From assembly GCA_026390735.1 (NCBI GenBank), contig JAPLFJ010000058.1, positions 1 to 62,017 on the forward strand: a stretch of DNA of 62,017 nt. Direction: 5' to 3'. Of this stretch, positions 377 to 49,098 are shown piece after piece (position 1 is the stretch's first letter; each line of letters begins with the position of its first letter). The notes under the pieces were generated by a model. The model did no database searches and was not told where the DNA came from. It worked only from the letters and a program-made list of their open reading frames with translations. The DNA comes from Ignavibacteriota bacterium. GTDB taxonomy: Bacteria; Bacteroidota; Ignavibacteria; Tepidaquicellales; Tepidaquicellaceae. A program made the position numbers and the translations under genes.

Positions 377-475
377 TATGATCCTACATTCATTAAATAT
401 TCAAAACTGTTAAGAACCTTAGAAATACTTTATAAACGAAGATGAAATTTTAGTTTAACTAACAATAATAACAAA

Positions 476-766
476 ATGAGAATAATCGGCTTTATCAACA
501 ACCCTTACACCCAAAGTGATTTCGCTATACATCTAAAAGATAATTACTCAGATGTTGGACTCGTATCCCCGCCTGTCAATACCGATAATATTGTACGCGC
601 CAAATCAGGGATACCTATACTCCAAATAGAATTTTGGAGCAACGATTTATTAAGACCTTACAAGTTTTTAGGTGAGCAATTATCTTATGTGTTAGACGAA
701 GATTCTGAATTCACCAAAGGGGGCAGTCCATGGCCTATATTTATGGAGGTTTACAATAGCTTTTAA
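476..766 (+). CDS. Hypothetical protein (96 aa)
   Basis: A small soluble protein with no signal peptide or membrane segment. It starts at an ATG after an A-rich leader with no clear Shine-Dalgarno. Its stop codon directly abuts the open frame of the following PHA-type protein, so the two genes are probably co-transcribed and may be translationally coupled. Codon use is less AT-extreme than in the neighbours. The sequence has no motif I can tie to a family. Confidence 0.6.
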   Translation: MRIIGFINNPYTQSDFAIHLKDNYSDVGLVSPPVNTDNIVRAKSGIPILQIEFWSNDLLRPYKFLGEQLSYVLDEDSEFTKGGSPWPIFMEVYNSF

Positions 767-799
767 ATGAGGTATATAATATCTTATACAAAAAGACTT

Positions 800-1108
800 A
801 TGCCAAAACTAGAAATTAATATACCTCACTCTCTTACAAAAGATGAAGCACTCACTCGCATTAAAACCTTCCTGCCTCAACTAAAGGAGCAAAATTCCGA
901 TAAGATTAAAGATTTAGAAGAATCCTGGAATGGTAACACCGGAGAATTTAAATTCAAAATATCAGGGTTTAAGGTGTCTGGGACTTTGCAGGTTGGTGAA
1001 AACTTTGTGTTGATAAACGGTGAGCTGCCTTTCGTTGCTTTACTTTTTAGGAGTACGATTGAAGAAACAATTCGTACTAAGGCGATGGAGTTACTGGAAA
1101 AGAAATGA
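800..1108 (+). CDS. Polyhydroxyalkanoic acid system-type small protein (PHA_gran_rgn-like)
   Basis: About 102 residues. The pattern fits the PHA granule-associated small protein family (PHA_gran_rgn): an N-terminal strand followed by a helix with ITKDEAL-like spacing, then a WNGN turn, a strand pair (FKFKISGFKVSG) and a long C-terminal helix. I chose the ATG at 800 because family members begin with MPxLxIxxPH. The open frame extends upstream to an ATG at 767 that touches the preceding stop. Family members are linked to PHA granules, but many exist without PHA synthase and none is visible here, so the role is uncertain. Confidence 0.6.
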   Translation: MPKLEINIPHSLTKDEALTRIKTFLPQLKEQNSDKIKDLEESWNGNTGEFKFKISGFKVSGTLQVGENFVLINGELPFVALLFRSTIEETIRTKAMELLEKK

Positions 1109-7728: not shown

Positions 7729-9291
7729 ATGACTAAAGAACAAGAACGTGAAGAATTACATAGCACTATTTGGCAAATAGCCACAGACTTACGGGGCAGT
7801 ATAGATGGCTGGGATTTTAAATCGTATGTACTAGGTATGTTGTTTTACCGCTTTATATCTGAAAACCTGACAACATACATCAATAAAGAAGAACAGCGAA
7901 CCGGTATTAAAGATTTTGATTATTCTAAACTTTCCGATAAAGATGCCGAATTTGGTAGAGCTGACACCGTGAAAGAAAAGGGCTTTTATATTTTGCCTTC
8001 AGAGTTATTTATAAATGTCAAGAGTAATGCTAAAAACGATGCAAATATAAATGAAACCTTGAGTACGATTTTTAAAAATATAGAAAACTCTGCCAAAGGT
8101 ACGGATAGCGAAGATGATCTCGAAGGTTTGTTTGAAGACATTGATGTGAATAGTAATAAACTTGGTGCGACCGTTCAAAAACGAAATGAAAAGTTAGTCA
8201 AAATCATTGAATCAATTGGTGACTTAGATTTGGGAGATTATCAGGACAATACCAATGATATTTTTGGTGATGCTTACGAGTTTTTAATGACAATGTATGC
8301 AAGCAATGCAGGAAAATCTGGAGGGGAATTTTTTACCCCACAAGAAGTATCCGAACTGCTTGCTCTAATTACTGTGGTAGGTAAAAAACAGGTAAATAAA
8401 GTTTATGACCCTGCTTGTGGCTCAGGCTCACTTTTATTGAAGTTTGCTAAAGTACTTGGAAAAGAAAATGTGCGGCAAGGATTTTTTGGACAGGAAACTA
8501 GTCTATCTATTTACAACCTTTGCCGTATCAATATGTTTCTGCATGACATTAATTATGAGAAATTTGATATTGCTCATGGTGATACATTGCTTGAACCCAA
8601 ACATTGGGACGACGAGCCTTTTGATGCTATCGTTTCCAATCCGCCTTATTCTATAAAATGGGACGGTGACAGCAATCCATTGCTTATTAACGACCCACGT
8701 TATTCTCCCGCAGGTGTGCTAGCTCCAAAATCTAAAGCAGACCTTGCTTTTACTATGCACATGCTTAGCTGGCTTTCTACTTCGGGAACAGCTGCTATAG
8801 TTGAATTTCCTGGTGTTCTTTACCGTGGCGGTGCTGAAATGAAAATACGGAAATACCTGATTGACAATAATTATATTGATACTGTTATACAACTGCCACA
8901 TGATTTATTCTTTGGTACCGGTATAACTACTTGTATTATTGTGCTTAAAAAGAGCAAAAAAGACAATGCAACACTTTTCATTGATGCTTCTGCTGAGTTT
9001 GTTCGAGAGGGAAATAAAAACAAACTGACAAAAACAAACAGAGATAAGATTCTTAAAACCTTTATTGAGCGAAAAGACATTCCTAATTTTTCAAAACTTT
9101 TACCTAACGACGATATTGCCACAAATGACTACAACATTGCTGTAGGAAGCTATGTGGAAAAGATTAATAATGAAGAAATTATTGATATTATAAAATTGAA
9201 TGCTTATTTAGCCGAGATTGTCGAAAGACAAAGCAAGCTACACAAAGATATTGATAAAATTATATTAGATTTAGAAGGAGGAAAAAAATGA
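7729..9291 (+). CDS. hsdM: Type I restriction-modification system, M subunit
   Basis: A 520-residue N6-adenine methyltransferase subunit. Residues 1-160 form the helical HsdM N-terminal domain. The catalytic domain contains GEFFTP (199-204), the SAM-binding DPACGSG (227-233) and the catalytic NPPY (304-307). The C-terminal helices (about 490-520) are a coiled coil for S-subunit contact. Length is normal for the family. Its stop overlaps the hsdS start by 4 bp (ATGA type), which indicates translational coupling. With HsdS it forms the methylase; with HsdS and HsdR it forms the restriction complex. All key motifs are intact. Confidence 0.95.
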   Translation: MTKEQEREELHSTIWQIATDLRGSIDGWDFKSYVLGMLFYRFISENLTTYINKEEQRTGIKDFDYSKLSDKDAEFGRADTVKEKGFYILPSELFINVKSNAKNDANINETLSTIFKNIENSAKGTDSEDDLEGLFEDIDVNSNKLGATVQKRNEKLVKIIESIGDLDLGDYQDNTNDIFGDAYEFLMTMYASNAGKSGGEFFTPQEVSELLALITVVGKKQVNKVYDPACGSGSLLLKFAKVLGKENVRQGFFGQETSLSIYNLCRINMFLHDINYEKFDIAHGDTLLEPKHWDDEPFDAIVSNPPYSIKWDGDSNPLLINDPRYSPAGVLAPKSKADLAFTMHMLSWLSTSGTAAIVEFPGVLYRGGAEMKIRKYLIDNNYIDTVIQLPHDLFFGTGITTCIIVLKKSKKDNATLFIDASAEFVREGNKNKLTKTNRDKILKTFIERKDIPNFSKLLPNDDIATNDYNIAVGSYVEKINNEEIIDIIKLNAYLAEIVERQSKLHKDIDKIILDLEGGKK

Positions 9292-9941
9292 ATAACGTAG
9301 AAAAGCTTATTGCACGGCATTGTCCAAAAGGTATTAAGTTTTGTGAATTGAGAGATATTGGTGATTTTTATGGTGGGCTTACTGGAAAAAGTAAAAAAGA
9401 CTTTCAAGGTGGAAATGCAAAATATGTAACGTATATGAATGTCTTTACTAACATTGCTGTAAACACGGATATTAACATTTTTGTCAAAATTGGCAAAAAG
9501 GAAACTCAAAATAGAGTTGAATATGGGGATGTGTTATTTACAGGTTCGTCAGAAACACCTAATGAATGTGGCATGTCTTCTGTTGTAACAGAAAAACTTA
9601 CTGAGTCTCTATATTTAAATAGCTTTTGCTTTGGTTTTAGGTTACGTGATAAAGAGCTAATGTTGCCGGATTTTTTAAAATATCTTTTTAGAGATGATAA
9701 TATAAGGAAGCAAATTGGTAAAACTGCAATGGGTGTAACAAGGTTTAATGTTTCAAAAAAACGATTTGCAAAAGTTATAATTCCTATTCCACCGATTCCT
9801 ATACAACAAGAGATTGCAAATATACTCGATAAGTTTACAAGGCTGGAGGCGGAACTGGAGGCGGAACTGGAGGCACGCAGGAAACAATACAAGTATTATA
9901 GAGGGAAACTTTTAGATTTTAAAAATGTAAATAATGGATAA
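9288..9941 (+). CDS. hsdS: Type I restriction-modification system, half-length S subunit
   Basis: At 217 residues this is about half the usual HsdS length. It has one target recognition domain (about residues 15-175) followed by one conserved helical spacer (about 176-210). Two such polypeptides would have to pair to bind a two-part site, giving a palindromic bipartite target. The spacer helix contains a tandem LEAE repeat encoded by 12-bp DNA repeats at 9843-9878. In EcoR124-type systems, changes in the number of such repeats alter the spacing of the recognised site. The gene overlaps hsdM by 4 bp and hsdR by 8 bp. No second hsdS gene is present in the window. Confidence 0.88.
   Translation: MNNVEKLIARHCPKGIKFCELRDIGDFYGGLTGKSKKDFQGGNAKYVTYMNVFTNIAVNTDINIFVKIGKKETQNRVEYGDVLFTGSSETPNECGMSSVVTEKLTESLYLNSFCFGFRLRDKELMLPDFLKYLFRDDNIRKQIGKTAMGVTRFNVSKKRFAKVIIPIPPIPIQQEIANILDKFTRLEAELEAELEARRKQYKYYRGKLLDFKNVNNG
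9843..9878 (+). repeat. 12-bp tandem repeat in the hsdS spacer
   Basis: The unit CTGGAGGCGGAA occurs twice exactly (9843-9854, 9855-9866), with a third degenerate copy (9867-9878). It is in frame and encodes Leu-Glu-Ala-Glu. It is GC-rich against an AT-rich background and is positioned where slipped-strand changes would lengthen or shorten the helix that sets DNA-site spacing. Confidence 0.85.
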
Positions 9942-12900
9942 ATATAACGTAGTCGCAGAAAACCCTGAAAGCACAGTGGTAGCCGAATATCAATCACCCT
10001 TTCATCGCGAAATAAATTACCAATCTGAAGCTGAGCTCGAAAAAGCATTTATTGAACAACTTCAAACGCAGGCATACGAGTATTTGGCTTTTACAACTGA
10101 ACAGGAATTAATTGCTAACTTGCGCCAACAATTGGGTATTCTGAATGATTATCAATTTTCTGATGCTGAATGGGAACAGTTTTTCAAAAACAAAATAGCA
10201 AATCAAAATAGTGGAATAGAGGAAAAAACAAGCTTCATACAGGAAGATCATATACAACTTTTAACCCGTGATGATGGATCAGTAAAAAATATCTATCTCA
10301 TTGATAAGAAAAACATCCACAACAACCGTTTGCAGGTAATTAATCAATATGTAGTTGATAACGGACAACGCATAAACCGCTATGATGTTACAATGCTGGT
10401 TAACGGTTTACCACTTGTGCATGTAGAACTCAAAAAACGAGGTGTAGATATTAAGGAAGCATTTAACCAAATCAATCGATATAATCGTGAATCGTTTTGG
10501 GCTGGCTGCGGGTTGTTTGAATATGTACAACTATTTGTGATTACAAACGGTACTTACACCAAATACTATAGTAATACTACACGTTTTACACATATCAAAG
10601 AAATAGGCAATAATATTGTTCGAAAAGGAAAACGAACAAGTAACAGTTTTGAATTTACTTCTTGGTGGGCTGATGCCAACAATCTCCCTATTATCGATTT
10701 GATGGATTTTGGTCGTACATTTTTTGCTAAACATACACTTCTTAATTTACTTATAAAGTATTGTGTTTATACTTCTGACAAAATGCTGCTTGCTATGCGC
10801 CCATATCAAATTGTCGCTACTGAGAAAATTTTGGGACAGATTAATGTTTCAAATAATTATAAGACTTATGGCACAATCAAAGGTGGGGGATATATCTGGC
10901 ATACCACTGGTAGTGGTAAAACTCTAACTTCATTTAAAACGGCACAATTGGCAAGCAAGCTATCATTTATTGATAAAGTGATGTTTGTAGTTGATAGAAA
11001 AGACCTTGACTACCAAACCATGAAGGAATACGACAAGTTCGAGAAAGGAGCGGCAAACAGCAATACAAACACCGCCATTCTTAAAAAGCAACTTGAAGAC
11101 ACGAAAGCAAACATTATCATTACCACCATTCAGAAATTATCTGTTCTTATTAAGAAATACAAAAATCATTCTTCTTATAATCAGCATATCGTAATAATTT
11201 TCGATGAGTGCCACCGCTCTCAGTTTGGTGATATGCACACTGCAATTACAAAGACTTTTAAAAAATATCACCTCTTTGGATTTACAGGAACACCAATTTT
11301 TGCTGTCAACTCAAGCAGCAACAGCCGAGCTGATTTGAGAACTACAGAGCAAGCTTTTGGCACTAAGTTACACACTTATACAATTGTCGATGCCATTACA
11401 GATAAAAATGTACTTCCGTTCCGAATTGACTATATAAGTACCATGAAAGAACAGGAAAATATACAAGACGAGAAAGTATGGAACATCGACAGGGAAAAAG
11501 CATTAGCCGCACCTGAGCGAATCGGTAACATTGTGAATTATATACGCGAGCATTTTGACCAAAAGACAAAACGTAATAGTTTCTATCAAATAAAAGATCG
11601 ACGATTGGCAGGGTTTAATTCTATATTTGCCGTTACATCTATTGATGTTGCTAAAAAGTATTATGCTGAGTTTCAAAAACAAATGAATGGATTGCCGAGC
11701 GATAGGCAACTGAAAATAGCTACTATTTATAGTTTTGGAGTAAATGAAGATGACCCGGAAATAGATGGAATTATCGAAGATGAAAACCTCGAAGATACAA
11801 GCAAATTAGACAAAAGTTCACGAGATTTTCTGGATGCAGCTATAAAAGATTATAATAAAATATTCAAAACCAATTTTGATACTTCGAGCGATAAATTTCA
11901 AAACTATTATAAAGATATATCGCAAAGAGTTAAAGACCGTGAAATAGATTTACTTATTGTGGTGAATATGTTTTTAACAGGCTTTGATGCAACTACTTTA
12001 AATACTCTTTGGGTAGATAAAAACTTGCGTTTGCATGGTCTATTGCAAGCCTATTCACGTACTAATCGTATTCTCAATAGTGTTAAAACTTTTGGAAATA
12101 TCGTTTGCTTCCGAAATTTAGAAAAAGCAACAAACGAGAGTATTGCACTCTTTGGAGATAAGGAAGCTTGTGGAATTGTTTTATTGAAAACCTTTGATGA
12201 ATATTATAATGGGTATAAAAATGGCGATAAAGATGTAAGAGGATATGCAAGCTTGGTAACTGAATTACTTGAGAAATATACAGTTGGAACGCAGATTATT
12301 GGAGAACAGAATCAGAAAAACTTTATCAGATTATATGGTTCTATACTGAAGGCAAAAAACATTCTTTCAGCATTCGACGAATTTGCAGGAAATGAGATTT
12401 TATCTGAACGCGATGTACAGGATTACCATAGTATGTATATCAACCTTTATAATGAATTTCGTGGTAAGAGTAAAGGAGACAATGAAAATGTAAATGATGA
12501 TATTGTCTTTGAAATGGAGTTAATTAAGCAAGTTGAAATTAATATTGATTTTATTCTAGCATTAATTAAGAAATTCCACGAAGGTCATTTAAAAGACAAG
12601 GAAATAGTTATAAGCATTAACAAAGCAATTGATTCCAGCGTTGAACTTCGTAACAAAAAAGAACTTATAGAACAATTTATTGATTCACTTACACCTTCAA
12701 CAAATGTTGATGACGATTGGCACTCCTTTGTTGATGTTAAAAAGTTAGAAGAGTTAGACAGTATTATTACGGTTGAAAAGTTAGACAAAGATGAAACATA
12801 CAAATTTATCAACAACGCTTTTCGTGATGGTTTTGTTCAACAAACAGGAACTGCTATTGCAAAAGTCTTGCCAGCGGTATCACGATTTAAACCCACTGGT

Positions 12901-12996
12901 GACCGTTCCAAGATAAGAGAAACAGTATTAGAGAAACTCATTGCATTTTTCAATAAGTTCTGGGATATATCTGGGGGAAGATTTTCAAAAGAATAG
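9934..12996 (+). CDS. hsdR: Type I restriction-modification system, R subunit
   Basis: A 1020-residue restriction and translocation subunit. The N-terminal PD-(D/E)XK nuclease has Asp151 and Glu165-x-Lys167 (in VELKK). The SF2 motor follows, with Walker A TGSGKT at 325-330, DECH at 424-427 and TGTP at 451-454; the second RecA domain includes the FLTGFDA and QAYSRTNR motifs. The C-terminal helical part (about 850-1020) binds the methylase core. It translocates DNA and cuts it after collision. Length and motifs indicate a functional enzyme. It begins inside the last codons of hsdS, so the three subunits form a tight operon. Confidence 0.95.
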   Translation: MDKYNVVAENPESTVVAEYQSPFHREINYQSEAELEKAFIEQLQTQAYEYLAFTTEQELIANLRQQLGILNDYQFSDAEWEQFFKNKIANQNSGIEEKTSFIQEDHIQLLTRDDGSVKNIYLIDKKNIHNNRLQVINQYVVDNGQRINRYDVTMLVNGLPLVHVELKKRGVDIKEAFNQINRYNRESFWAGCGLFEYVQLFVITNGTYTKYYSNTTRFTHIKEIGNNIVRKGKRTSNSFEFTSWWADANNLPIIDLMDFGRTFFAKHTLLNLLIKYCVYTSDKMLLAMRPYQIVATEKILGQINVSNNYKTYGTIKGGGYIWHTTGSGKTLTSFKTAQLASKLSFIDKVMFVVDRKDLDYQTMKEYDKFEKGAANSNTNTAILKKQLEDTKANIIITTIQKLSVLIKKYKNHSSYNQHIVIIFDECHRSQFGDMHTAITKTFKKYHLFGFTGTPIFAVNSSSNSRADLRTTEQAFGTKLHTYTIVDAITDKNVLPFRIDYISTMKEQENIQDEKVWNIDREKALAAPERIGNIVNYIREHFDQKTKRNSFYQIKDRRLAGFNSIFAVTSIDVAKKYYAEFQKQMNGLPSDRQLKIATIYSFGVNEDDPEIDGIIEDENLEDTSKLDKSSRDFLDAAIKDYNKIFKTNFDTSSDKFQNYYKDISQRVKDREIDLLIVVNMFLTGFDATTLNTLWVDKNLRLHGLLQAYSRTNRILNSVKTFGNIVCFRNLEKATNESIALFGDKEACGIVLLKTFDEYYNGYKNGDKDVRGYASLVTELLEKYTVGTQIIGEQNQKNFIRLYGSILKAKNILSAFDEFAGNEILSERDVQDYHSMYINLYNEFRGKSKGDNENVNDDIVFEMELIKQVEINIDFILALIKKFHEGHLKDKEIVISINKAIDSSVELRNKKELIEQFIDSLTPSTNVDDDWHSFVDVKKLEELDSIITVEKLDKDETYKFINNAFRDGFVQQTGTAIAKVLPAVSRFKPTGDRSKIRETVLEKLIAFFNKFWDISGGRFSKE

Positions 12997-14197: not shown

Positions 14198-14232
14198 AAA
14201 GACGGCATTTTGTGGATGAATGCCGCCTTCTT
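14198..14232 (-). terminator. Rho-independent terminator of the ubiquitin-like operon
   Basis: An 11-bp stem with one mismatch (AAGACGGCATT against AATGCCGCCTT) is followed, in the minus direction, by a run of five T. It lies just past the last gene of the minus-strand cassette that starts near 17996. Confidence 0.75.
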
Positions 14233-14254: not shown

Positions 14255-14452
14255 CTATCGATTATTAATACTTGAATCAGAAAGATTGCTATTTTCTTTA
14301 CTATTTCCAGTGGTACGCGTGGCGGAATTGTCATCTAGTAAAATCCTTTCTTCTGTTTTAGTTTCGTAAATATTTCTCATAGACTTTAGAACTTCTATCC
14401 CTAAGGTAAACATCAGCAGAACATTTTCTTTACTTAAAAGTGGTTTCTTCAT
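14255..14452 (-). CDS. Small hypothetical protein (65 aa) at the end of the ubiquitin-like operon
   Basis: The last gene before the terminator at 14198-14232, about 50 bp downstream of the JAB peptidase gene. It has a hydrophobic helix around residues 10-25 and a polar, serine/asparagine-rich, low-complexity tail. No family recognised. Its position makes it a candidate component or substrate of the conjugation cassette, but that is inference from context only. It could also be an independent small protein. Confidence 0.5.
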   Translation of the reverse strand: MKKPLLSKENVLLMFTLGIEVLKSMRNIYETKTEERILLDDNSATRTTGNSKENSNLSDSSINNR

Positions 14453-14501
14453 AATCGTGTATGGTTAATAGTTTTGGAGGTATAATATACATATGTAAGA
14501 A

Positions 14502-15386
14502 TCAGAATGGTTCATCTATACCGCTCGTCATAGGATATGGACTGTGAAACATAACATCTTCAATTTGGTCAAGACGATAGTTAACATTCTGAAGATTCTC
14601 TTCGACATCGCCGAGTAAATGGCCCCTCATTAATTCATAATCAAATGTCTCTTCAGGGAATAACTTCTCAGATTTGAACGGAGTTGAATTATCGAATATA
14701 TCTTTGTCTGTTCTCCATTCATCTAACTTAAAAGAATCCTTTCTCTTCTTATCTCTTGAGAACGAGGACAATAGAAAATCTTCCCTTTCAATATTTGATA
14801 TATCTACTTCGTCGATGTTATTATCAACAAAGACTTCACATGGTACTTGTATTAAGTAGTCATTATGATTTATGTTGAAAATCCCAGCCACAAAACCTCC
14901 TTCACGGGTGAATAATAACGACAGTTCAAAATTCTGATTAATATATTTATTATCTGTTCCACTAAATGAGTTCATACCATCAGGGTGGCGATGTATAACA
15001 CAATTAGCTTTATAATCGTCTGGAAGGTACTCTATGCTTGTATGAGCTACTTTCTGCTTCGGTATGTAGAACTCTTCATCTAAGATTAAAACATCGTTAA
15101 CTCGTTCTTTGATGTTCGTTACTAAGGAGAACTCATCACCTCTCAACTTATCCGAGATTTGATTACAAACAAGTAACAGCTTGAGAGGCAAAACTACATC
15201 TACTTTCGTTAACAGTTTAATACCGGATTCCCACGCTTCATTCTTTGATTCTTTTACATCGAGCTTTGTAGACTTGTTACTTTTTTTCCTGTCTTTGTGA
15301 TTATTCACTTTTGCTTCGTTTTCTTTAACATTCTTAATCTTCTCATCAGTGTTAATGTCCTTTAGGTTGATTGCTTGATTTTCCAT
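14502..15386 (-). CDS. JAB/JAMM-fold metallopeptidase of a ubiquitin-like cassette
   Basis: A 294-residue protein with a lysine-rich, probably disordered start (residues 15-50). The peptidase domain carries the zinc signature H132-x-H134-P followed by S142-x-x-D145, with Glu85 a candidate for the upstream acid. Prokaryotic JAB enzymes in ubiquitin-like clusters trim the modifier or remove it from targets. The last 80 residues form a charged extension ending in GIDEPF. It lies 36 bp downstream of the E1-like gene on the same transcript. All zinc ligands expected for an active enzyme are visible. Confidence 0.8.
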   Translation of the reverse strand: MENQAINLKDINTDEKIKNVKENEAKVNNHKDRKKSNKSTKLDVKESKNEAWESGIKLLTKVDVVLPLKLLLVCNQISDKLRGDEFSLVTNIKERVNDVLILDEEFYIPKQKVAHTSIEYLPDDYKANCVIHRHPDGMNSFSGTDNKYINQNFELSLLFTREGGFVAGIFNINHNDYLIQVPCEVFVDNNIDEVDISNIEREDFLLSSFSRDKKRKDSFKLDEWRTDKDIFDNSTPFKSEKLFPEETFDYELMRGHLLGDVEENLQNVNYRLDQIEDVMFHSPYPMTSGIDEPF

Positions 15387-15422
15387 TTCAATTAAATTTA
15401 GTTTATGAATAAATGTTTTAGG

Positions 15423-16097
15423 TCACATCTTCACTTTGTTATATTCTTCCATTGTTGTTAGTATCTTCTTGACGTTAAAGTGTACCGTCTTTGATTGTTT
15501 TTTCCGTTTAAGAATCATTTCTATTATGGCTATTGAAGCTAGTATAGATGGAGTACCAAAGAACGAAGGTGTTATAGAATATGAACTTGGATCTTCACCC
15601 CATAAACCCGAATCAAAATTGTTTATGGAGACAGTACCTTCATATCCATCATAACCTAATTTTACGTATTGAGGTATATTACCGCTTGTATCGTTAACGA
15701 ACTGAGCTATTGCATTACGAAGGATTAACTTATCAGTGCAATCGAATATATGATCTACATTCTGATATTTCTTTAAGTGCTCGATTGTAAATAACTCATT
15801 GTTTGTTAAGACGATTGTATCTTTCCTTCGCTCAGAGATAAGTTCTTTCACGGCTGTACATTTATATTGCCCCACCTGCGATAATTTAAATAACGTTCGA
15901 TTTAGGTTTGAATTCTCAATCCTATCATCGTCAAATAGAATCAGATTGCCAACTCCCAACAACGAGAGATTTATTCCGCACCATGATCCTATTCCGCCAA
16001 GGCCTACAATTAAAACAGTAGTGTTGGAGTAATCACCTATAAGATTCTTTTGTCTGTTGTTTATTTCTTCAGTTGAAGATATTACGCCGTCTTCCAT
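15423..16097 (-). CDS. Minimal E1-like/ThiF adenylating enzyme
   Basis: A 224-residue Rossmann-fold protein of the ThiF/MoeB/E1 superfamily. The nucleotide loop is GLGGIG (32-37). It is followed by an acidic strand end (FDDDRIE, 55-61), NLNR with Arg67, Lys79 near QYK, and DCTDK at 119-123. Such enzymes adenylate the C-terminus of a ubiquitin-like protein. It is shorter than typical MoeB (about 250), has no CxxC zinc pair and no cysteine in the C-terminal crossover region; the only cysteines are 40, 80 and 120. The start overlaps the E2-like gene by 16 bp, so the two are translationally coupled. Confidence 0.85.
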   Translation of the reverse strand: MEDGVISSTEEINNRQKNLIGDYSNTTVLIVGLGGIGSWCGINLSLLGVGNLILFDDDRIENSNLNRTLFKLSQVGQYKCTAVKELISERRKDTIVLTNNELFTIEHLKKYQNVDHIFDCTDKLILRNAIAQFVNDTSGNIPQYVKLGYDGYEGTVSINNFDSGLWGEDPSSYSITPSFFGTPSILASIAIIEMILKRKKQSKTVHFNVKKILTTMEEYNKVKM

Positions 16098-16882
16098 ATC
16101 TGATCATCCTTTCGTTTTGTGAATTCAATAGTGGGGGTATAATAAGTAGATTCAATATGAAATCGTTCGTAGGTAGATGATATTTCATTGAGAAGTTCAA
16201 GAAGTAAATCTGGATTTTCTAAAGGAATACTTCTTCCTTCTAACGATCCGGTACAACAGCTACCTAGCCCGCTATGATCCACATTCGGATGTTGGCCATC
16301 GGACGATAACTGTATTGAGCCATATCCAATTTTTGAATGTAAGATATTCAAGAAAATACATTTTAAGTAACAAATCGGAGAAGCGTATTCCTGAACATAA
16401 CCTTTTTCAGAGAACCCCTCTGTAACCTCTAACATTGGACTGTAGAACTTACATAGATTAACAGAATTCTGCTTCATTACTAGAAACCAACCTGCTGAAG
16501 ATACTTTCCTTACTATATCGATTAAACTCTGTCCAACCAGGTTTCTACGATAGAGTTCGTTTATTTTGGCAAGCTCGTTTACGTATAAATCATTTAGCTT
16601 CTCTGTTACTTCCTTCAACTGGTCTTTGTATACGGTTCTGAGTTGTTTGATACTGTTGATTACCTCTATCTCGCTTTCAAGTACTACTTCACGAATAGTT
16701 ACTTTTTCCTGCTTCGAACTCATTAACTTATCCGTAAACTCTTTCATCTTGATTTCTTTGTTTAGGACTTTACGTAATGAGTCTTCTGGAATTATACTGC
16801 TTAGGTCTTCATCATTTTCCCCCATTCTTCTAAAGAAATTGCTATCCAATGGAGGCTGAATTGATTTTATTACTTCGTTCAT
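16082..16882 (-). CDS. E2-like ubiquitin-conjugating fold protein
   Basis: A 266-residue protein. Residues 40-115 form a long charged helical or coiled-coil region. The C-terminal part (about 128-255) has the order of an E2/UBC fold: a strand pair, a cysteine-containing helix region, then HPN (198-200) followed by a candidate catalytic cysteine pair at 209-210 (SCCTG) and a long helix (LLLELLNEI). The HPN-to-Cys spacing of about nine residues agrees with E2 enzymes. It resembles the prokaryotic E2 families linked with ThiF and JAB genes, such as those of PRTRC-type cassettes. It overlaps the E1-like gene downstream. Confidence 0.75.
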   Translation of the reverse strand: MNEVIKSIQPPLDSNFFRRMGENDEDLSSIIPEDSLRKVLNKEIKMKEFTDKLMSSKQEKVTIREVVLESEIEVINSIKQLRTVYKDQLKEVTEKLNDLYVNELAKINELYRRNLVGQSLIDIVRKVSSAGWFLVMKQNSVNLCKFYSPMLEVTEGFSEKGYVQEYASPICYLKCIFLNILHSKIGYGSIQLSSDGQHPNVDHSGLGSCCTGSLEGRSIPLENPDLLLELLNEISSTYERFHIESTYYTPTIEFTKRKDDQIWKTA

Positions 16883-16965
16883 AGAATAATTTGTTTGTTT
16901 AAAATAGTTTATTGTTTATAAATTTAAAAACAGGTTATTACCAATATCTAATTACTTAGAAAGAA

Positions 16966-16997
16966 GGAATGCCGTGCTCAGGCGGCATCCCTTTTTT
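16966..16997. terminator. Intergenic hairpin between the ubiquitin-like and E2-like genes
   Basis: A nine-pair stem with one mismatch (GGAATGCCG / CGGCATCCC) has a strong T6 run on the plus side and a weaker TTCTTTCT tract on the minus side. Genes here run on the minus strand, so it probably causes partial termination or stabilises the upstream RNA. This would make more modifier than conjugating enzymes. Its ATGCCG core is shared with the terminator at 14198. Confidence 0.55.
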
Positions 16998-17166
16998 GTG
17001 TTACGTTGGAGTTTATGATTTAACGTTTAATTGAAACATTGACCTATAAACGATGTTAATAATACTATGAAGTAAATCAATAAACTAATTTATTGGATGG
17101 AAGGATGTTCTTCTTTTATAGTTAGTAATTAATATTAGGGTAAATCAAATTGAAAGCAGGACTAGT

Positions 17167-17421
17167 CTAGGCTGCCACGTTGAATCTCACCAGTGATAAG
17201 TCCCCTGTGAAATTACCGTTCTCAATATCAGATGGTGAAAGTGTGTTCTGATTTGAGTCCAGCACGTCAAATTTACTGATGTCATTCTGCTTTGCACAGT
17301 CTTTCAGCTTCTGCACTAACCCTTGTCCCTGAAGGCCGGTTATATTGTATTGGTTTCCGTTACAATGAACGAATCTTTCTTCTGTTGTGGTAGTATTATT
17401 ACCAGTTGTGTTCCAAGCCAT
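17167..17421 (-). CDS. Candidate ubiquitin-like (beta-grasp) modifier ending in Ala-Ala
   Basis: An 84-residue protein. After a polar threonine-rich start (1-15), the order is strand (RFVHCNG), strand (QYNITG), helix (QGLVQKLKDCAKQN), then strands FDVLDS and LSLVRFNV. This matches the beta-beta-alpha-beta-beta order of beta-grasp modifiers, with the chain ending soon after the last strand. It lies upstream of E2-, E1- and JAB-like genes, which supports the assignment. It ends Val-Ala-Ala instead of Gly-Gly. Alternatives are a mature Ala-Ala modifier or a non-conjugated partner. The fold is inferred from pattern and context. Confidence 0.65.
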   Translation of the reverse strand: MAWNTTGNNTTTTEERFVHCNGNQYNITGLQGQGLVQKLKDCAKQNDISKFDVLDSNQNTLSPSDIENGNFTGDLSLVRFNVAA

Positions 17422-17496
17422 TTTGTGTATCCTTTCTTTTTGTTTTAGGTTGTTAATTATAAAATGGTTTTTGTTAAATCTTGTTGCTGTAACTTT

Positions 17497-17799
17497 TTAA
17501 ATAAGGCACAATTCCTCAATGAACAAACACGGTATGAACATAGGAGAATTTGTGTTTGAATTATTAGAATCTGAGTTTGGGCTTTCCACATCCTCTTGAT
17601 CGAGTGAAATATCACTTTCAGAAAAATCATATTCTGTAGAGCTGTCACTATCCGAATCATCTTCCCAGTCTTCCGAATATCTATCTTCCTCATTGTAACA
17701 AAGATCTTCGGCTTCTTCGGTATCTTCTGCATAAACATAACATGTTAGCGTACCATAGCGGCTATATGAATAAGGAATCTTGACACTATAACGATTCAC
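17497..17799 (-). CDS. Acidic hypothetical protein (100 aa) of the ubiquitin-like operon
   Basis: Residues 1-35 form a small alternating-strand domain (YSVKIPYSYSRYG ... YVYAEDTEEAEDL), similar in style to short VxVxAxdxeEA domains found with phage and plasmid regulators. Residues 36-85 are extremely acidic and serine-rich, so this part is likely disordered. The short end is hydrophobic with two cysteines. Its ATG overlaps the stop of the ribbon-helix-helix gene. It could be a target, an adaptor or a DNA-mimic. The 93-codon frame overlapping it at 17457-17738 is a shadow. Confidence 0.6.
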   Translation of the reverse strand: MNRYSVKIPYSYSRYGTLTCYVYAEDTEEAEDLCYNEEDRYSEDWEDDSDSDSSTEYDFSESDISLDQEDVESPNSDSNNSNTNSPMFIPCLFIEELCLI

Positions 17800-17996
17800 A
17801 CTGCCTCCTTCTCTAAGTTATGAATATCGGAAGAATATACCTCCAATTTATTTTCAGCACATTTGTTGGGTTGTAATTCCAGTGATAAGTGTTCTGATAG
17901 TATTTCGTTGACTAGGCGGGTCATTGGAATCCCTCGTTGTTTTGCTTGGTGGTAGAGCGGTGAAATTAGTTCTTCTGAAATCTTTGGCGAATACAT
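17796..17996 (-). CDS. Ribbon-helix-helix-like small protein, first gene of the ubiquitin-like operon
   Basis: A 66-residue protein whose first 40 residues fit a ribbon-helix-helix: a short strand (SPKISEEL), helix (ISPLYHQAKQRG), the turn IPMTR and a second helix (LVNEILSEHL). The tail is glutamate-rich. RHH proteins usually bind operator DNA as dimers, so it may regulate its own operon. It has a clear Shine-Dalgarno (AAGGAG, eight to nine bases before the ATG) and sits about 45 bp after an extended -10 promoter. It overlaps the next gene by 4 bp. Confidence 0.6.
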   Translation of the reverse strand: MYSPKISEELISPLYHQAKQRGIPMTRLVNEILSEHLSLELQPNKCAENKLEVYSSDIHNLEKEAV

Positions 17997-18929: not shown

Positions 18930-20777
18930 ATGAAAAAGAAATTTAGTTTAAAGAATATAGTAATAACTATTCTACTTTTAATATTAGCACCAATATTGAT
19001 AAATGCACAGGATTATTATTATCAGGACTATATTATTTCTAATAATAAAGTTCCAAGACAGGAATATGATGCCTTCGATCAAAATGGTCTTCCAAAAGTT
19101 AGGTCAACGGAGGTTGTATTTATTTATTTAGATTTTCCTGATGGAAGACTTAATGGTAATATTCCTCTATCAAATCAAGATCTTTTAGCAATCGCAAATA
19201 ATGGAGGTTCTTTGGACGCAGTTGGTGAAATAGGATTAACAAATATAAATAGCCCTTTCCCAACTACTGGAAATCCAAATTTGTTTGCAAATCTATTTAA
19301 GTATAAATGGTCGGATAGATGGAACATGCTTTTCTCTACTGGAGGAGTATATCAAGGTAGTGCACATCCAGATTATTCTTCACATAATGGGTACATGAAT
19401 TTAAGCAAAGAGGCCTATGGTAGTTTTAGAGAATATTGGAAAGAGGTTTCAAACTTGAATTATGATGTTTTGCCAGGATTAACTCATTCAAATGAAACGG
19501 AAACAATGTATAGGACAGGAATAGCTAATAATATTAGAAATTATAACGGTGAAAGAGTTATCGAAAGTATTATGCTACCTCTAAAGAAATATGATTTAAA
19601 TTCGAGTAATGGTTATTTTCCAGATTTTAATAGCCTACATACTGGTGGAATGGATAAGATGTTAGAGGATGCTCATACGGTTGTTGAAAATATGCATGCA
19701 AATAATACTTTAGAGTTTGATATAAATAATTTTAATGGAATAGTTGTTTTTGTAATTGCAGGCTCCCATAGCAAATTTAAAGGTAGAGGTATGGGAAGCG
19801 AGACAATAGTTAGAGGTATGTACGATCAAATAAGTTCAGATTATGCAGTGATAGATGGTATAACATGCCTTACTCATGAATTTGCTCATTTGGCTTTTGG
19901 GTGGCATCATACAATAGCAGGGCGCAATTGCTTAATGAACCCAAACCAAACTAAAGATATCAATTGTCCTTCGCATCCTAATCCTATATTAAAATTAAGG
20001 GAAGGATGGGCTACACCAATCCATTTAAATTCAAATCTTAATAATATCGAACTTCAACCTGTTGAGACAAGTATGCAAGTTGGAATCATAACAATTTATG
20101 GGAACCCGTCTGCCGCACCTGATCATTTGTCAGGCGAATGTTACGTGGTTGAGAATAGAAGGCAAATAGGATTTGACAAAAGACTTACGAACGAAGGTGA
20201 GTTTCCATATTTCAAAGGTGGTTTGTTAATATGGCATTATGGTCCGTATGGAGAATTCAATTTTCCTTCGGGATTGGATTTAGAAGTAAATGCGTATAAA
20301 TTAATAACCCCTAATGATGTAGACCCGAATTTAATTTTCCAAAGTCAAGGAAACCAAGAGTACTATTTTGCCTACAAGAATGGTTTGGCAAATCAGAATT
20401 TTTATAACTTAATTCAAAGCAGAACTTTTTCTCAGGAAAATTTGAAAACCGGAATTCAGTATACAGGCATCCATCAATCTAATGATGGAGATATAAATAG
20501 CAGTGTTTTATTTAATTTGAGCTATAATATTTCTTTGCCACCTCAATATGATTATACTGTCTTGAATTATACTAATCAATCAGGGAATCATCTCGTTTCT
20601 ACTTCTGGCAAGATATATTTCCACAAAGCAAATAATTATGACTATTTTAGACTCTATCCAGGGGCAAAATTTGATATAGCACCAAATACGTACTTTAGAG
20701 CCAAAGGAATTAAAGCAATTGGTGAAGAGGCGAATAAAATTATATTTTCAAGTCCAGGTTATGAATCAATTAATTAA
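18930..20777 (+). CDS. Secreted zinc metallopeptidase (M6-like), 5' part of a stop-interrupted gene
   Basis: A 615-residue product. It has a signal peptide (residues 8-26, ending INAQ) and a metallopeptidase domain with H316-E-F-A-H320 in a LTHEFAHLAFGWHH context, like immune-inhibitor/M6 secreted peptidases. It then ends at a TAA at 20775-20777. The next 99 bases stay open in the same frame and run into the 20877-23120 frame, which carries beta-helix repeats and a T9SS tail. Together they make one 1396-residue protein interrupted by a single stop. As it stands, this product has the catalytic domain but no sorting signal, so it may be stranded in the periplasm. Confidence 0.75.
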   Translation: MKKKFSLKNIVITILLLILAPILINAQDYYYQDYIISNNKVPRQEYDAFDQNGLPKVRSTEVVFIYLDFPDGRLNGNIPLSNQDLLAIANNGGSLDAVGEIGLTNINSPFPTTGNPNLFANLFKYKWSDRWNMLFSTGGVYQGSAHPDYSSHNGYMNLSKEAYGSFREYWKEVSNLNYDVLPGLTHSNETETMYRTGIANNIRNYNGERVIESIMLPLKKYDLNSSNGYFPDFNSLHTGGMDKMLEDAHTVVENMHANNTLEFDINNFNGIVVFVIAGSHSKFKGRGMGSETIVRGMYDQISSDYAVIDGITCLTHEFAHLAFGWHHTIAGRNCLMNPNQTKDINCPSHPNPILKLREGWATPIHLNSNLNNIELQPVETSMQVGIITIYGNPSAAPDHLSGECYVVENRRQIGFDKRLTNEGEFPYFKGGLLIWHYGPYGEFNFPSGLDLEVNAYKLITPNDVDPNLIFQSQGNQEYYFAYKNGLANQNFYNLIQSRTFSQENLKTGIQYTGIHQSNDGDINSSVLFNLSYNISLPPQYDYTVLNYTNQSGNHLVSTSGKIYFHKANNYDYFRLYPGAKFDIAPNTYFRAKGIKAIGEEANKIIFSSPGYESIN

Positions 20778-20876: not shown

Positions 20877-23120
20877 GTGAATGATAATAAAGCAAAGATA
20901 GCAATGTCTTATGGTGCATCAAGCATTAAATATCCCATAGAAATTGAGAACGTCTCGTCTGATAATCCATGTAATAACAAAAATTATTATGACATATATT
21001 TAATTGGTGCATTAATTAATAAGATAAATGTTGATGGTTTAAGCACAAAATTTGTTCAAATTCAAACAACCCCGCAATGTAACATCAATTTGTCCAATAC
21101 GTATTCGGGTTTTTATGCAATAAATACATTTTCCAGTAATGCAAATGTTATTTTTACTAATTGCAATTTAGTCAATGGTTCTTCTACAATGCTAAAACCC
21201 ATAGATGGAAGTATATGGCAGGGATTAAAGGTATACGGTGGTGGAATTAATTTCAATACTGCTCAGATAAAAGGTGCAACTATCGGAATTACTTTAAATG
21301 ATTTGATAAATGAATTGAAAATTATAAATTGCACTTTTGATAACTTAAATCAAGATATAACTATTAACAATTATTTGTTTGATAAAACCCCCGATAATGG
21401 TAGGATTTATAATAATCACTTTACTCCTTCTGGAAACAATACACCAATTCACATATGGGTTACAAACACAAAATACATTTTAATAGATAATAATGAAATG
21501 TTTAATGTAAAAGCAACAGGCATTTCGTTATTCAACTGCAACATGCCCAATGTTATCAACAATACAATCCAAGGTTCGGGAGGTGATCAACTTGGAATTG
21601 TCAGCTATTCATCAGGAGGGACATACCAATGTAATTCAATTTCCAATTGTTATGAAGGTATAGAACTTGACAATTCACAACCTCTACTTTACCAAAATAA
21701 CGTACATACAAACGGAATTGGAATGTTCATTACTAACAGCTCATGTCCTATTATGTCACCAGCATATTCTGGGAATGAAACAAATAATTTAGCTGGTTAC
21801 AATCACTTCTATAATAATTCAGGGCAGGAAATATATATTCATAATACAGAAAATGCACTATGCAATTTATTAATGAATGATGGATATAATATGATAGAAG
21901 ATGATGTCAATAACGATTACCTAATATATATTAATAATGAAGGATGGACTCCTCCAGATGTTGTAGAATGTACAAATAATTATTGGGGTAACATAAGCAA
22001 TCCTGGCGATAAATTGTTTCCTTCAGAATACTTTAATTTTAATCCATTTTTAATTTCAAAACCATCGCCACCTACAAATTGCCAAATTACAACTGTTAGT
22101 GAAAATAATTCTTCCAAATCACAACAAACATTACTTTTGGGTGATGCATTGAAATCAAACCTGAATAATGACTTTATAAGTGCCGCTAATTATTCGCAAC
22201 AATTAACAAATATTGGAGGAAGTCAGGTTTATCGAAAAACCGGATCAAGGTTGTTTTTTAGCAACAAATATGCCGAAGGAACAGGGATATCATATCTTCC
22301 TTCATACTATGAAAATCTTATTGCTACAAATGTAAGTGATACATTATTACAAAAGTACTTTAGAGGATTAAAAATTGAATCAAAGGTCATAAATGAATCA
22401 TTACAAAGCGCACTTACAGAGCTTGATATTATTATTGCTAATGCAACAAACTCATATGAGTTATTATATGCACACCTTGATAAACTAAGAATCATAAGTA
22501 TGCTTGAAAGTTCTTATAGTGGAGATAATCATAATAGTAATATATCGTTACCAGAAGTCTATAAGCTATTAAAATCTGATTTAAGAAAAACATCTGAAAA
22601 CTCTAAATCTATAATAAATAAAACGCAACAGCAGTCTAAACTTAAATCAAACTCTTCGAGGTATAATTTCCTTCTGAATCGTATTCCTGATAACTTAGAG
22701 AATTTAAGCAATAAATCTGCTAATCAGATAAATGAAATAATAAAAGATAAGATTTTGTATGAAATATTAAATAATAACTTTGTTCCTAATGTTCCTCCAA
22801 TTAGAAGTGAAGAGTATAAATCAAAGAATAAGTCAGGCTTAAACAACAATTTTCCAACAAAGTTTGAGCTTTCACAAAACTATCCAAACCCGTTTAATCC
22901 TTCAACAACTATTAACTATGCATTACCAAAAGAAGGATTTGTTACTTTAAAGATATATGACATTACTGGAAGGGAAGTTAAAACCCTAGTAAATGAAATT
23001 CGAAAAACGGGTTTTTATTCAATTACTTTTAATGTTTCTGAATTGTCATCCGGTATTTATTTCTACAAATTACAGGCTGGCAGTTTTAATCAAACAAAAA
23101 GAATGGTATTAATCAAATAA
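20877..23120 (+). CDS. Beta-helix plus T9SS sorting domain, 3' part of a stop-interrupted gene
   Basis: The 747-codon frame begins at a GTG only because the frame is open there. Open sequence extends back to just after the TAA at 20775, in the same phase as the 18930 gene. Residues 1-400 are right-handed beta-helix-like (repeated NxI/NxF turns such as NNTIQGSG and NYWGNISNPGD). Residues 430-620 are helical, and the last 85 residues are a type A T9SS sorting domain (NYPNPFNPSTTINY, ITGREVKTLV, GIYFYKL). There is no signal peptide, so on its own it could not be exported. Most likely it is the second half of a former single gene. Confidence 0.7.
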   Translation: MNDNKAKIAMSYGASSIKYPIEIENVSSDNPCNNKNYYDIYLIGALINKINVDGLSTKFVQIQTTPQCNINLSNTYSGFYAINTFSSNANVIFTNCNLVNGSSTMLKPIDGSIWQGLKVYGGGINFNTAQIKGATIGITLNDLINELKIINCTFDNLNQDITINNYLFDKTPDNGRIYNNHFTPSGNNTPIHIWVTNTKYILIDNNEMFNVKATGISLFNCNMPNVINNTIQGSGGDQLGIVSYSSGGTYQCNSISNCYEGIELDNSQPLLYQNNVHTNGIGMFITNSSCPIMSPAYSGNETNNLAGYNHFYNNSGQEIYIHNTENALCNLLMNDGYNMIEDDVNNDYLIYINNEGWTPPDVVECTNNYWGNISNPGDKLFPSEYFNFNPFLISKPSPPTNCQITTVSENNSSKSQQTLLLGDALKSNLNNDFISAANYSQQLTNIGGSQVYRKTGSRLFFSNKYAEGTGISYLPSYYENLIATNVSDTLLQKYFRGLKIESKVINESLQSALTELDIIIANATNSYELLYAHLDKLRIISMLESSYSGDNHNSNISLPEVYKLLKSDLRKTSENSKSIINKTQQQSKLKSNSSRYNFLLNRIPDNLENLSNKSANQINEIIKDKILYEILNNNFVPNVPPIRSEEYKSKNKSGLNNNFPTKFELSQNYPNPFNPSTTINYALPKEGFVTLKIYDITGREVKTLVNEIRKTGFYSITFNVSELSSGIYFYKLQAGSFNQTKRMVLIK

Positions 23121-26478: not shown

Positions 26479-29400
26479 ATGGAGTATGGTAATAAGTCAT
26501 CGAGAAAATCTTTTGAAAGAATATTACAGGTTATAATAATTGTAATTATCATTTCGACTTTAGTTTCTATTGCATCAGCAGCGAATGATTATTCGTTATT
26601 TAAAGATAATGAAGTAATAAACGTTGTTTTTGAAGCAAATAATTTGGGCAGAAATATTATAGAAAAAAGTCACTCACCAAATAAGACCACTAATACAATT
26701 ACTTCAACAACAACTGGTGGAAACTGGGATAATCCATTAACCTGGGTAGGGAATGTAGTTCCAGGAGCAAATGACGATGTTATTATTGATGGACTTGTTA
26801 ATGTGACTGGTAATTCATGCAATAATATAACAATAAATTCGGGTGACACATTACAAAACAGGTTACTTTTTAACTGCAACAATGATTGGTTCACATTGAC
26901 CGTAAACGGTAATATTACAAATAATGGTATTATAAAAAATTATGATGTATTTGTGTGCAATGGTTGGGGAAACACCGAAAGAGATAAATTAATTTTAAAT
27001 GTAAAAGGAAATATTACAAATAATGGTATTTGGGTACCCGAAGTAACGAATATAACGGGAAATACAACACAAACAATAACCTCTACTCAAGATAAAGTAT
27101 ATCAAGGCAGTTTTTATCTGCAAGATTCCACGATTACTGTAGCCGCAGGTACCGACTTAAGGTTTTTCTCTTTAGATATGCAATATGGAAAGATGTATCT
27201 GAATGGCAAATCTTTGATAAATTCCGGGGTTATAAATGGAAAAATAGAAAATGGAAAAATTAATAATTCAAGCATTGCTAATATAACGTTTACGGGGAAA
27301 ATGGATTTTCAGAATGGAAAATTAAATCAAGTTACTTGTAACGGCAGAGCAAATATTTTTGGTAAAGTAGGTGTGGATAATGGTGTAATTTTTAAGGATT
27401 CTTTAATAGTTATAGATACACTTCAATGTATTTTGTGGAATAATTGTGCAGATGATTGGTTCACATTAACGGTAAATGGTGTTATCTTAAATAATGGAGT
27501 AATTAAAAACCAAGATCCTTTTGCATGCAATGGTTGGGGTGCTTATGAAAACGATAAATTGGCAATAAATGCCAAAGGAAATATCATTAATAATGGGATT
27601 TGGGCTGCAGGAACGACAAGGTTGATTGGGAATCCAGATCAAACTATACATTCAGCGCCAAACAAAAATTATCAGGGGGCTTTTTATTTATTAGATTCAA
27701 CAACAATAGTTAATGCCGGGACTGATTTAAGTTTTGTCAATCTGAATTTGCAATATGGTAAAATAAATATGGGAGGGAAAGCCCTTACAAATAGTGCAGT
27801 AATATATGGAACAATAAATAACTCTAAAATTTATAATTCTTCAGTATATAACATCACACTAACAGGAGGAGTTGACTTTTTCAATGGAGCATTGGGTCAA
27901 ATAATTTGTAACAGTAAAGCAAATATTTATGGTGTCGTAAATATAGACAACGGGGTTACTTTTAATGATACTTTGATAATAATAGACACTCTTCGGTGTA
28001 GATTATGGAATAACTGTGCAGATGATATTTTTACAATGACAGTAAATGGTGTTATATTAAATAATGGAGTAATTAAAAACCAAGATCCATATGCTTGTAA
28101 CGGATGGGGTGCTTATGAAAATGATAAATTAGCAATAAATTCAACAAAGAATATAATAAACAATAAGAGCTGGAATATTTACGATACAAAACTCACTTTT
28201 AAAAAATTAGAATTAAAAACAATCAGATTATACAACCCATCGTCTAATAATATAATTATCGATACTATATATATTAACGGACAAAACATGGGAAACTTTA
28301 ATGTTACAACCGGAAACACAAATGTTGTAATACCCCCTTTTGGCAATTATTCTATAACAACCCAATTTAATTCAACTGACACCTTAGAAAAATATGCGAC
28401 TCTCAATATAATAAGTAACAACATTGGTTCCTTAAACCACATCACGCTTTACGGTAAAGTAAATACAAGCAAAATATTAGTAACGACACCAAATGGAGGA
28501 GAAAATTTAATTGTTGGAATACCAACAAACATAACATGGACAAGTTCAGAGGTTCAGAATGCAAAGATTGAACTGACGACAAACAATGGTTCAAGCTGGT
28601 CGACGATTGTTTCAGGATATCCTGCTTTGTTGCGAAGTTATGCTTGGACAGTTCCAAATTATATTTCTACAGCCTGTAAGATCCGCATAAGTGATGTTTT
28701 AAATCCATCAATAAATGATTTAAGTAATAATACTTTTTCTATTACTAATTTGATTCTTGGTAATGGACTCATCGCGTATTATCCATTTGAAGGAAATGGG
28801 AATGATTACAGCGGGAATGGGAATAATGGAATTATAGTGAATAATTGTACATTTGACGAAGGAATACTTGGAACGGGAGTAAGGACTTATGGGAGTGACG
28901 TTTACAATCAAGGAAGTTATGTTAAACTACCTTCTTTCAATTTTCAGACCCGGCAGAATTTTACTATTTCGATGTGGGTAAAAGAGGAGTCAATGGCACA
29001 TCCGCACGGAGATGCATATTTCTGGAGCGGCTTTCATGATATTGGATGGCTTGGAATTGGTCATTTTATGGATTCATTGAGGTTTGCAGTTGGTGGAACA
29101 TTGTGGCAAAACACTATTGCGTATCCGTTTGATAATACAGATTTAAATAAGTTTGTTTTTTATTCAATGGTATATGACAACGGTATAATGAAAGCATATA
29201 AAAATGCTACATTGATAGGTACGAAAGCTTCATCTGTAAATATTTTTTATAAAGACTCTACGGCTTTAAATAAAATCTGGTGGGGAAATTTTAATACTAT
29301 GAATCAAGCTGTTTCAAGATTAAATGGTGTTTTTGATGAGGTTAGGATTTACAACAGATCATTGACTTTAACAGAAATACAACAGCTTTATAATCAGGTG

Positions 29401-47608: not shown

Positions 47609-47627
47609 TTTTGCTAATATTTTGCTA
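47609..47627. repeat. Two direct repeats TTTTGCTA beside the integrase stop, possible arm sites
   Basis: TTTTGCTA is found at 47609-47616 and 47620-47627, overlapping the last codon of the integrase gene. With AGTTATGCT on the other side of the tRNA half they form a plausible P/P' arm pair. Confidence 0.4.
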
Positions 47628-49061: not shown

Positions 49062-49098
49062 AATATTTTCCTTTTTCTTATTCAAGTATATTATGCCA

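Follow-up and report, generated by a model that had tools for sequence, protein, structure and literature searches.

A seven-gene cassette encoding a ubiquitin-like modifier and its predicted enzymes

The window analyzed here is a 62,017-nt stretch of contig JAPLFJ010000058.1 from an Ignavibacteriota bacterium (assembly GCA_026390735.1), numbered on the forward strand. On its minus strand, from 17996 to 14255, lies a cassette of seven genes encoding, in order of transcription, a ribbon-helix-helix (RHH) protein, an acidic protein, a ubiquitin-like modifier (Ubl), an E2-like protein, an E1, a JAB protein, and a small tail protein. A first-pass annotation made from the DNA letters alone had proposed these seven minus-strand open reading frames (ORFs) in the same order, and all of them are present. 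It had also described the genes as overlapping, which is correct for RHH/acidic (4 bp) and E2/E1 (16 bp) but not elsewhere, the Ubl and E2 genes being separated by a gap of 284 bp. Judged by its predicted products, the cassette is a complete set of Ubl, E1, E2, and JAMM genes in one operon, as in bacterial Ubl-conjugation operons generally. A chance arrangement of ORFs was considered and is ruled out because the whole gene order is kept in other genomes.

The putative modifier (17167–17421, minus strand) has 84 amino acids and the C terminus RFNVAA. Its assignment is based on this conserved end, on a beta-grasp model, and on a profile match to phage Ubl proteins. In the alignment, 12 of 12 homologs keep the C-terminal pattern R-[FY]-N-x-A-A, with R79, N81, A83, and A84 invariant. 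Six of the 12 aligned bacterial Ubl proteins (L025, L026, and L030–L033) continue for one to four residues beyond Ala-Ala (A, L, EVNI, SIAV), and several phage Ubl proteins are also tailed beyond an A-A or A-G end, the bacterial and phage tails together spanning one to six residues. These tails would provide the JAB protein with a trimming task. Scans of Pfam, NCBIfam, and PADLOC gave no match to the Ubl. Its structural model (predicted local distance difference test score, pLDDT, 74.5) shows the strand-strand-helix-strand-strand order of a beta-grasp fold, in agreement with the beta-grasp-like modifier proposed at first pass. The top Foldseek match is chain B of PDB 8tyz, a "bacterial E1-E2-Ubl complex" (probability 0.97, E 0.06) that we take to be a Bil complex, and VIA-align returned SUMO, UFM1, RBD, and ubiquitin structures at Z 5.7–6.8.

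The E2-like protein (16082–16882, minus strand) is predicted to consist of an N-terminal coiled coil and a C-terminal UBC-like domain. Over 15 sequences H198, P199, N200, and C210 are invariant and C209 is variable, so that of the features highlighted at first pass the HPN motif at 198–200 and C210 hold up as a predicted active site, but C209 does not. The predicted catalytic Cys210 is followed by xGSLxxR. The model (pLDDT 73.7, about 85–90 in the C-terminal part) has a long helix at residues 71–129 and a UBC-like domain; residues 113–257 align with the E2 proteins UBE2S (Z 5.4 over 119 residues, root-mean-square deviation 4.7) and BubB of 9eae (Z 4.6); seemingly unrelated capping proteins were listed too, at a higher Z of 5.9. 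Only irrelevant weak matches to the E2 were found in Pfam, NCBIfam, and PADLOC. Among PDB chains, none matches the E2 or the Ubl significantly in sequence, and neither family has a meaningful entry in Pfam, NCBIfam, PADLOC, or PHROGs. We consider the fold matches of both models supportive, not conclusive.

The remaining two enzymes are more readily classified. The E1 (15423–16097, minus strand), a single-domain protein of the ThiF/MoeB type with 224 amino acids and the GLGGIG motif noted at first pass, clearly matches the Pfam ThiF domain (PF00899, E 5.1e-25). An alignment of bacterial and phage E1 proteins contains no invariant cysteine; the best column is the cysteine of a DCTD motif, present in 28 of 31. 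The predicted JAB/JAMM isopeptidase (14502–15386, minus strand) scores under the gathering threshold of Pfam Prok-JAB (E 4.8e-4, 20.4 bits). The HxHP and SxxD motifs from which it had been called a peptidase are nevertheless part of a full JAMM set, with E85, H132, R133, H134, P135, S142, and D145 invariant in 15 homologs.

Three smaller genes accompany these four. The CopG-like RHH protein (17796–17996, minus strand) is a probable autoregulator, with a weak match to Pfam CopG_antitoxin (E 6.8e-4) and homologs in six other loci (L020, L021, L022, L032, L033, and L035). The acidic protein (17497–17799, minus strand; GTG start, pI 4.05) has only irrelevant weak library matches; its gene is kept upstream of the Ubl gene in nearly all loci and is duplicated in some. 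The tail protein (14255–14452, minus strand) is conserved in the closest loci only (L020–L024).

A terminator-like hairpin, absent from the first-pass annotation, lies in the Ubl-E2 gap (16964–16995, minus strand; gap z −3.52). A stable hairpin is present in all 13 bacterial Ubl-E2 gaps tested (z −1.65 to −4.78, mean −3.05), with a T-rich stretch after most, whereas control acidic-Ubl gaps of the same loci have a mean z of +0.13. Among phage Ubl-E2 gaps, z is below −2 in seven of eight tested, and two others (L095 and L099) show little structure. The stem sequences vary among loci. The simplest reading of these sequences is an intrinsic terminator or mRNA cap, and because the hairpin follows the Ubl gene, synthesis of the Ubl probably exceeds that of its enzymes. 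At the 3' end of the cassette, a second hairpin (14200–14232, minus strand; stem GGCGGCATT/AATGCCGTC) is followed by TTTTT on the minus strand. Of the promoter and terminator previously ascribed to the cassette, the terminator is thus retained; a scan for sigma-70 promoters was near background (36 found, 30 expected), and no promoter is claimed.

Bacterial homologs, mobile elements, and defense genes

We identified 17 bacterial loci, all in metagenome-assembled genomes (MAGs) of Ignavibacteria/Bacteroidetes, with a common gene order wherever it could be read. A search of 148 genomes with the E2 protein recovered three copies in the genome of origin (contigs C30, C7, and C25) and copies in eight further genomes, seven from the same family as the window's genome and one from the same order, with two copies each in G008, G010, G016, and G017. 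When 395 genomes of the phylum were searched with a profile, only the genome of origin and G030 gave a match, and the system is therefore patchy and lineage-limited. In a genome contig collection the JAB profile detected 11 loci, some on the same contigs, in MAGs assigned to Ignavibacteria or Ignavibacteriae, Bacteroidetes, Sphingobacteriia, or Chlorobi; a scan of this collection with the single E2 protein gave no match. The first-pass annotation had suggested looking for the same gene order elsewhere, and on long-enough contigs from nine genomes and two further MAGs the order acidic-Ubl-E2-E1-JAB was always found, in some with RHH in front. No E2 match was obtained in phage or plasmid collections and no JAB match in plasmids; E1 matches in the phage collection were to generic ThiF or crAss/Fpv E1 proteins. 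The cassette is under purifying selection, with dN/dS between paralogs of 0.03–0.08 in the genome of origin and up to 0.21 elsewhere.

The cassettes are associated with mobile DNA. A tyrosine integrase, probably that of the host element, is encoded in the window at 47625–48701 (minus strand; Pfam Phage_integrase, E 6.2e-23), and it is adjoined by a small, probably excisionase-like protein (48702–49085, minus strand) that has no Pfam match; in L082, too, a homolog of this protein adjoins the integrase. Cassettes in G010, G015, G016, and G017 likewise have an integrase of this kind nearby. In G015 the integrase abuts tRNA-Thr (C49:91071–91144), and a 46-bp copy of the 3' part of this tRNA gene is found at C49:114504; the cassette, at 106.4–109.2 kb, is located between the two, within an integrative element of 23.4 kb. 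The integrase of G010 abuts tRNA-Ala. Repeat searches at this tRNA gene and near the other integrases detected no second att site, and no tRNA gene is present in the window to mark the ends of its own element. We conclude from this arrangement that the bacterial cassettes are most likely cargo of integrase-bearing elements that insert at tRNA genes. Partial copies of the tRNA-Thr att repeat occur at L030:13648 (20 bp) and L030:15342 (17 bp), perhaps as from tandem element insertion, and two 5' halves of a tRNA-Lys-like gene near integrase-bearing elements of G017 (L078 at 19035 and L080 at 15731) suggest insertion within the tRNA.

Other genes recur on these elements. An uncharacterized gene of the C14 family (56376–57713, plus strand) is linked to cassettes in other genomes, 7 of its 10 copies lying 4–40 kb from one. 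The family, of about 430 amino acids and without a Pfam match, has homologs in L027, L033, L078, and L081–L083 and perhaps comprises replication or mobilization proteins. Genes for GHKL/MORC-like ATPases, recognized by eye from an EFVDNSIDA-type motif, adjoin the integrase in L078 (15685–17346), L033 (17496–19169), and L083 (16920–18728). Behind JAB, genes for DUF2958, a Mu Gam-like protein, an unknown protein, and DUF932 are found in varying sets: among 11 copies from nine genomes, DUF2958 is directly 3' of JAB in six, with DUF932/Gam-like genes in others.

On its 3' side the window cassette faces a convergent Type I restriction-modification (RM) system with M, S, and R genes (7729–12996, plus strand; PADLOC E 2.5e-132, 1.3e-45, and 0), the restriction island recognized at first pass, and such a defense neighborhood recurs: PADLOC identified a defense system on this side in 10 of 14 readable loci. 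These are Type I RM in the window, L021 (M and S), L026, L029, and L031; Type III RM together with SIR2-HerA in L020; Druantia in L022; Type IIG in L030; SngB/SngC-type (Sng/BREX-like) genes in L032; and a Type II methyltransferase in L038. PADLOC named no system in L025, which has candidate-only matches, or in L033; for L027 and L028, the reading of the flanks was confined to ORF lists. In the 10 kb on the 3' side of a cassette, six N6-methylases were seen where a uniform-placement model expects 0.19 (P about 6e-8), a value that overstates the case because defense genes cluster anyway. The window (38–1108) and L020 (G000:C7, 13841–14569) share a gene pair at one contig end, with 60% identity for the protein searched, and on both contigs the cassette is nearer the opposite end. 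Between this pair and the cassette lie Type I RM in the window and Type III RM with SIR2-HerA in L020; these are perhaps equivalent sites with exchanged defense cargo. Also beside the window cassette are genes for probably secreted proteins (26479–35232, 2917 amino acids, and 18930–20777) and nearby ORFs, such as 20877–23120, with the sorting-like tail PNPFNPSTTI..., and large secreted-looking proteins adjoin other cassettes too (L021 and L027).

Phage cassettes beside the sliding clamp and other Ubl systems

The JAB profile also matched T4-like viral contigs from IMG/VR on which genes for clamp loader, sliding clamp, Ubl, E2, E1, and JAB are consecutive. A wider scan yielded 21 phage contigs. 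Nineteen of them extend far enough to be read, and each has the clamp gene directly upstream of the Ubl gene; L103–L106 are near-copies, leaving about 16 distinct contigs among the 19. PHROGs identified the sliding clamp and both clamp-loader genes. Like the bacterial cassettes, those of the phages have the same four genes in the same order, with a coiled-coil E2 of about 290 amino acids and a histidine before the cysteine. They differ in that the phage Ubl mostly ends [RK]xYxVAG, with a Gly end or a tail after it, where the bacterial Ubl has Ala-Ala; in that the phage E2 reads HYH...CWG and the bacterial E2 HPN...CxG; and in their site downstream of the sliding clamp, where no RHH or acidic gene was seen. 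In L104 (5180–5620) the E2 has 146 amino acids where near-identical contigs have 301, from either a sequencing error or a real break.

Profile comparison related the bacterial to the phage cassettes for E1 (3.8e-34), JAB (2.3e-10), and Ubl (1.8e-6). The weak point of this link is the E2: the two families align over 172 columns with the active site in register, but the hhalign E values of 0.15–0.24 are not significant, and a relation between them is suggested by gene position and active-site layout, not by a profile match. In an E1 tree built without Bil, Bub, and MoeB sequences, the bacterial and the phage E1 proteins form one clade apiece, and the two clades group together, apart from PRTRC and crAss-type E1 proteins. 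The bacterial E1 profile scores phage E1 proteins at about 100 bits, the best ThiF in the PDB at 68.6, and BubCD at 46.8. From these sequence comparisons, the cassette represents a lineage of its own, to which the clamp-adjacent phage cassettes are the closest relatives found.

Several known systems resemble the cassette in part. PRTRC, which is operon type 6d of Iyer et al. 2006 (PMC1779556), likewise has separate Ubl, E2, and E1 (and JAB) genes, a related E1 (hhalign E 4.7e-8), DUF932 nearby, and a location on mobile-type DNA. Yet PRTRC A (JAB), B (E2), and C (Ubl) gave no NCBIfam match at E values up to 1, the cassette E1 reached 31 bits with the PRTRC_ThiF model, whose cut-off is 144.75, and hhalign found no match to flavobacterial PRTRC B and C. 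Moreover, the PRTRC_C Ubl ends in GTKG where the cassette Ubl ends in Ala-Ala, and the PRTRC E and F genes are absent. No ParB-like gene was noticed among ORFs of the cassette flanks or Pfam-scanned neighbors, over which no ParB profile was run. Flavobacterial-type PRTRC loci (SSB, DUF932, PRTRC E, C, F, B, and ThiF) do occur in two genomes of the phylum (L067–L069) and are useful as an outgroup. More generally, types 6a–6c have a fused E2-E1, in type 6e JAB is fused to E1 or the E2 is inactive, and the E2 of type 6d lacks the usual histidine (PMC1779556). With all genes separate and HPN present, the cassette fits none of types 6a–6e, type 6d being closest; later classifications could include it, which is the main risk to its novelty.

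Bil systems (BilABCD) also encode Ubl, E1, E2, and JAB as separate proteins. BilA contains two Ubl domains, BilB a CEHH motif, and BilD, besides a Cys domain, one inactive and one active adenylation domain (PMC11354881). By comparison, the cassette has one beta-grasp domain in 84 amino acids without a tandem Ubl, an E1 of 224 amino acids with one ThiF domain and no invariant cysteine, and no conserved CEHH spacing in 15 E2 homologs. Citrobacter Bub proteins in the PDB are similar in E1 (BubCD, E 2e-11) and in the E2 model (BubB, as given above); BubCD is one chain of 458 amino acids whose E1-like part lies at about 181–295, whereas the cassette E1 is a separate protein. In crAss-like/Fipvunavirus loci a phage-borne E1 has a JAB beside it, but these E1 proteins are on a separate long branch, and the E2-like candidate is much larger and the Ubl-like protein longer. 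Flavobacterium phage Fpv3 (L059, 1116–5127) and crAss-like phage cr128_1 (L060, 1096–5148) share this layout, and upstream each encodes a Ubl-like protein and a large protein that could be the E2. Such loci, whose genes carry the annotation ThiF or hypothetical, appear to be another phage Ubl system. With PADLOC 2.0.0, no cassette protein matched a system model, except that the E1 alone matched generic E1-E2 models over its ThiF domain (best 1.7e-14). By the features compared, the cassette is neither PRTRC nor Bil, as the first-pass annotation had suggested with reference to the single-domain modifier and the lack of a recognizable ParB. Its description as a possible new or minimal type can be narrowed: the cassette is outside PRTRC and Bil, but it is not just minimal, being a distinct lineage related to the phage cassettes.

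Possible mechanism and biological role

We propose the following sequence of events. The RHH protein would regulate the operon, and the hairpin would end or cap most transcripts past the Ubl gene, which would leave the Ubl in excess over the enzymes. The E1 may adenylate the C-terminal Ala84 of the Ubl. The adenylate would then be handed directly to Cys210 of the E2, with the HPN motif supporting catalysis; direct transfer seems most likely because the E1 has no invariant cysteine. The coiled-coil E2 would attach the Ubl to a target, and the JAB protein would both trim Ubl forms extended past Ala-Ala and strip the Ubl from targets. On the basis of motifs and conservation, we are rather confident that Ubl conjugation of this kind operates, and much less so of its use: anti-phage defense has about an even chance, as does the whole statement that the cassette is a Ubl conjugation and deconjugation system carried by a tRNA-inserting element and used for anti-phage defense. 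The defense role is favored because of the variable defense neighbors and of two precedents. Bil is a system of anti-phage defense. Ubl-like conjugation also occurs in CBASS (PMC10097602). The first-pass annotation had left the choice between defense and element maintenance, and the mobility and the defense neighbors are compatible with this. Several observations weigh against our proposal. With sister cassettes present in phages, an anti-phage function is not a necessity; the defense systems could be mere fellow cargo on the same element; and the DUF932, Gam-like, and DUF2958 neighbors are element or phage genes that fit an element function equally well. On the enzymatic side, the fold matches are weak (pLDDT about 74; Foldseek E 0.06 for the Ubl and about 1 for the E2), and the DCTD cysteine found in most E1 proteins could still have a role.

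PRTRC is presumed to serve its element, and the cassette might similarly tag element or host proteins for replication, excision, transfer, or stability, with the defense genes as separate cargo. The integrase, excisionase-like, C14, and GHKL-ATPase-like genes that recur on the same elements argue for such a service, as do DUF2958 and the DUF932/Gam-like genes behind JAB, flavobacterial PRTRC loci also adjoining DUF932. However, 3 of 10 C14 elements lack the cassette, and cassettes are present in G002, G008, G020, and G030, where C14 was not found; because the two occur apart, the cassette is not a fixed part of the element backbone. No ParB-like or partition gene was noticed by the cassettes in the ORF lists, which were read without a profile search. 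We therefore hold element service to be possible, yet the less probable of these two roles. More doubtful is an ancestral role in modification of the replication machinery, in which the phage cassette would tag the sliding clamp and the derived bacterial version would act on the clamp or replisome of host, element, or phage. The constant position and PHROGs identity of the phage clamp gene and the grouping of the E1 clades are in its favor, but adjacency may mean no more than shared expression timing, a clamp gene was not seen next to any bacterial cassette, and a significant profile match is lacking for the E2 link. The ThiF/MoeB-type E1 without a Cys domain made us consider a ThiS/MoaD-type pathway (sulfur carrier or cofactor) in place of protein tagging. 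We rejected it as very improbable, given that the Ubl ends in Ala-Ala and not Gly-Gly, that every cassette includes a JAB and a UBC-like E2 with HPN...Cys, and that no gene of sulfur or cofactor metabolism was noticed in the vicinity.

Research on bacterial Ubl systems is recent, and few types have been characterized. To these the cassette adds E2 and Ubl families of its own, an Ala-Ala end, a link between phages and mobile elements, and a conserved hairpin that separates the tag from the enzymes. The clamp-Ubl gene pair makes it directly testable whether phages tag their replication machinery. As a speculation to which we assign a low probability, T4-like phages and integrative elements may have a common Ubl lineage, with an Ala-Ala or Ala-Gly tag passed by an E1 that has no catalytic Cys straight to the E2, and the phage form may modify the phage's own clamp. 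Eukaryotes tag PCNA through ubiquitylation and SUMOylation, and if the speculation is true, the phage system would be a prokaryotic counterpart.

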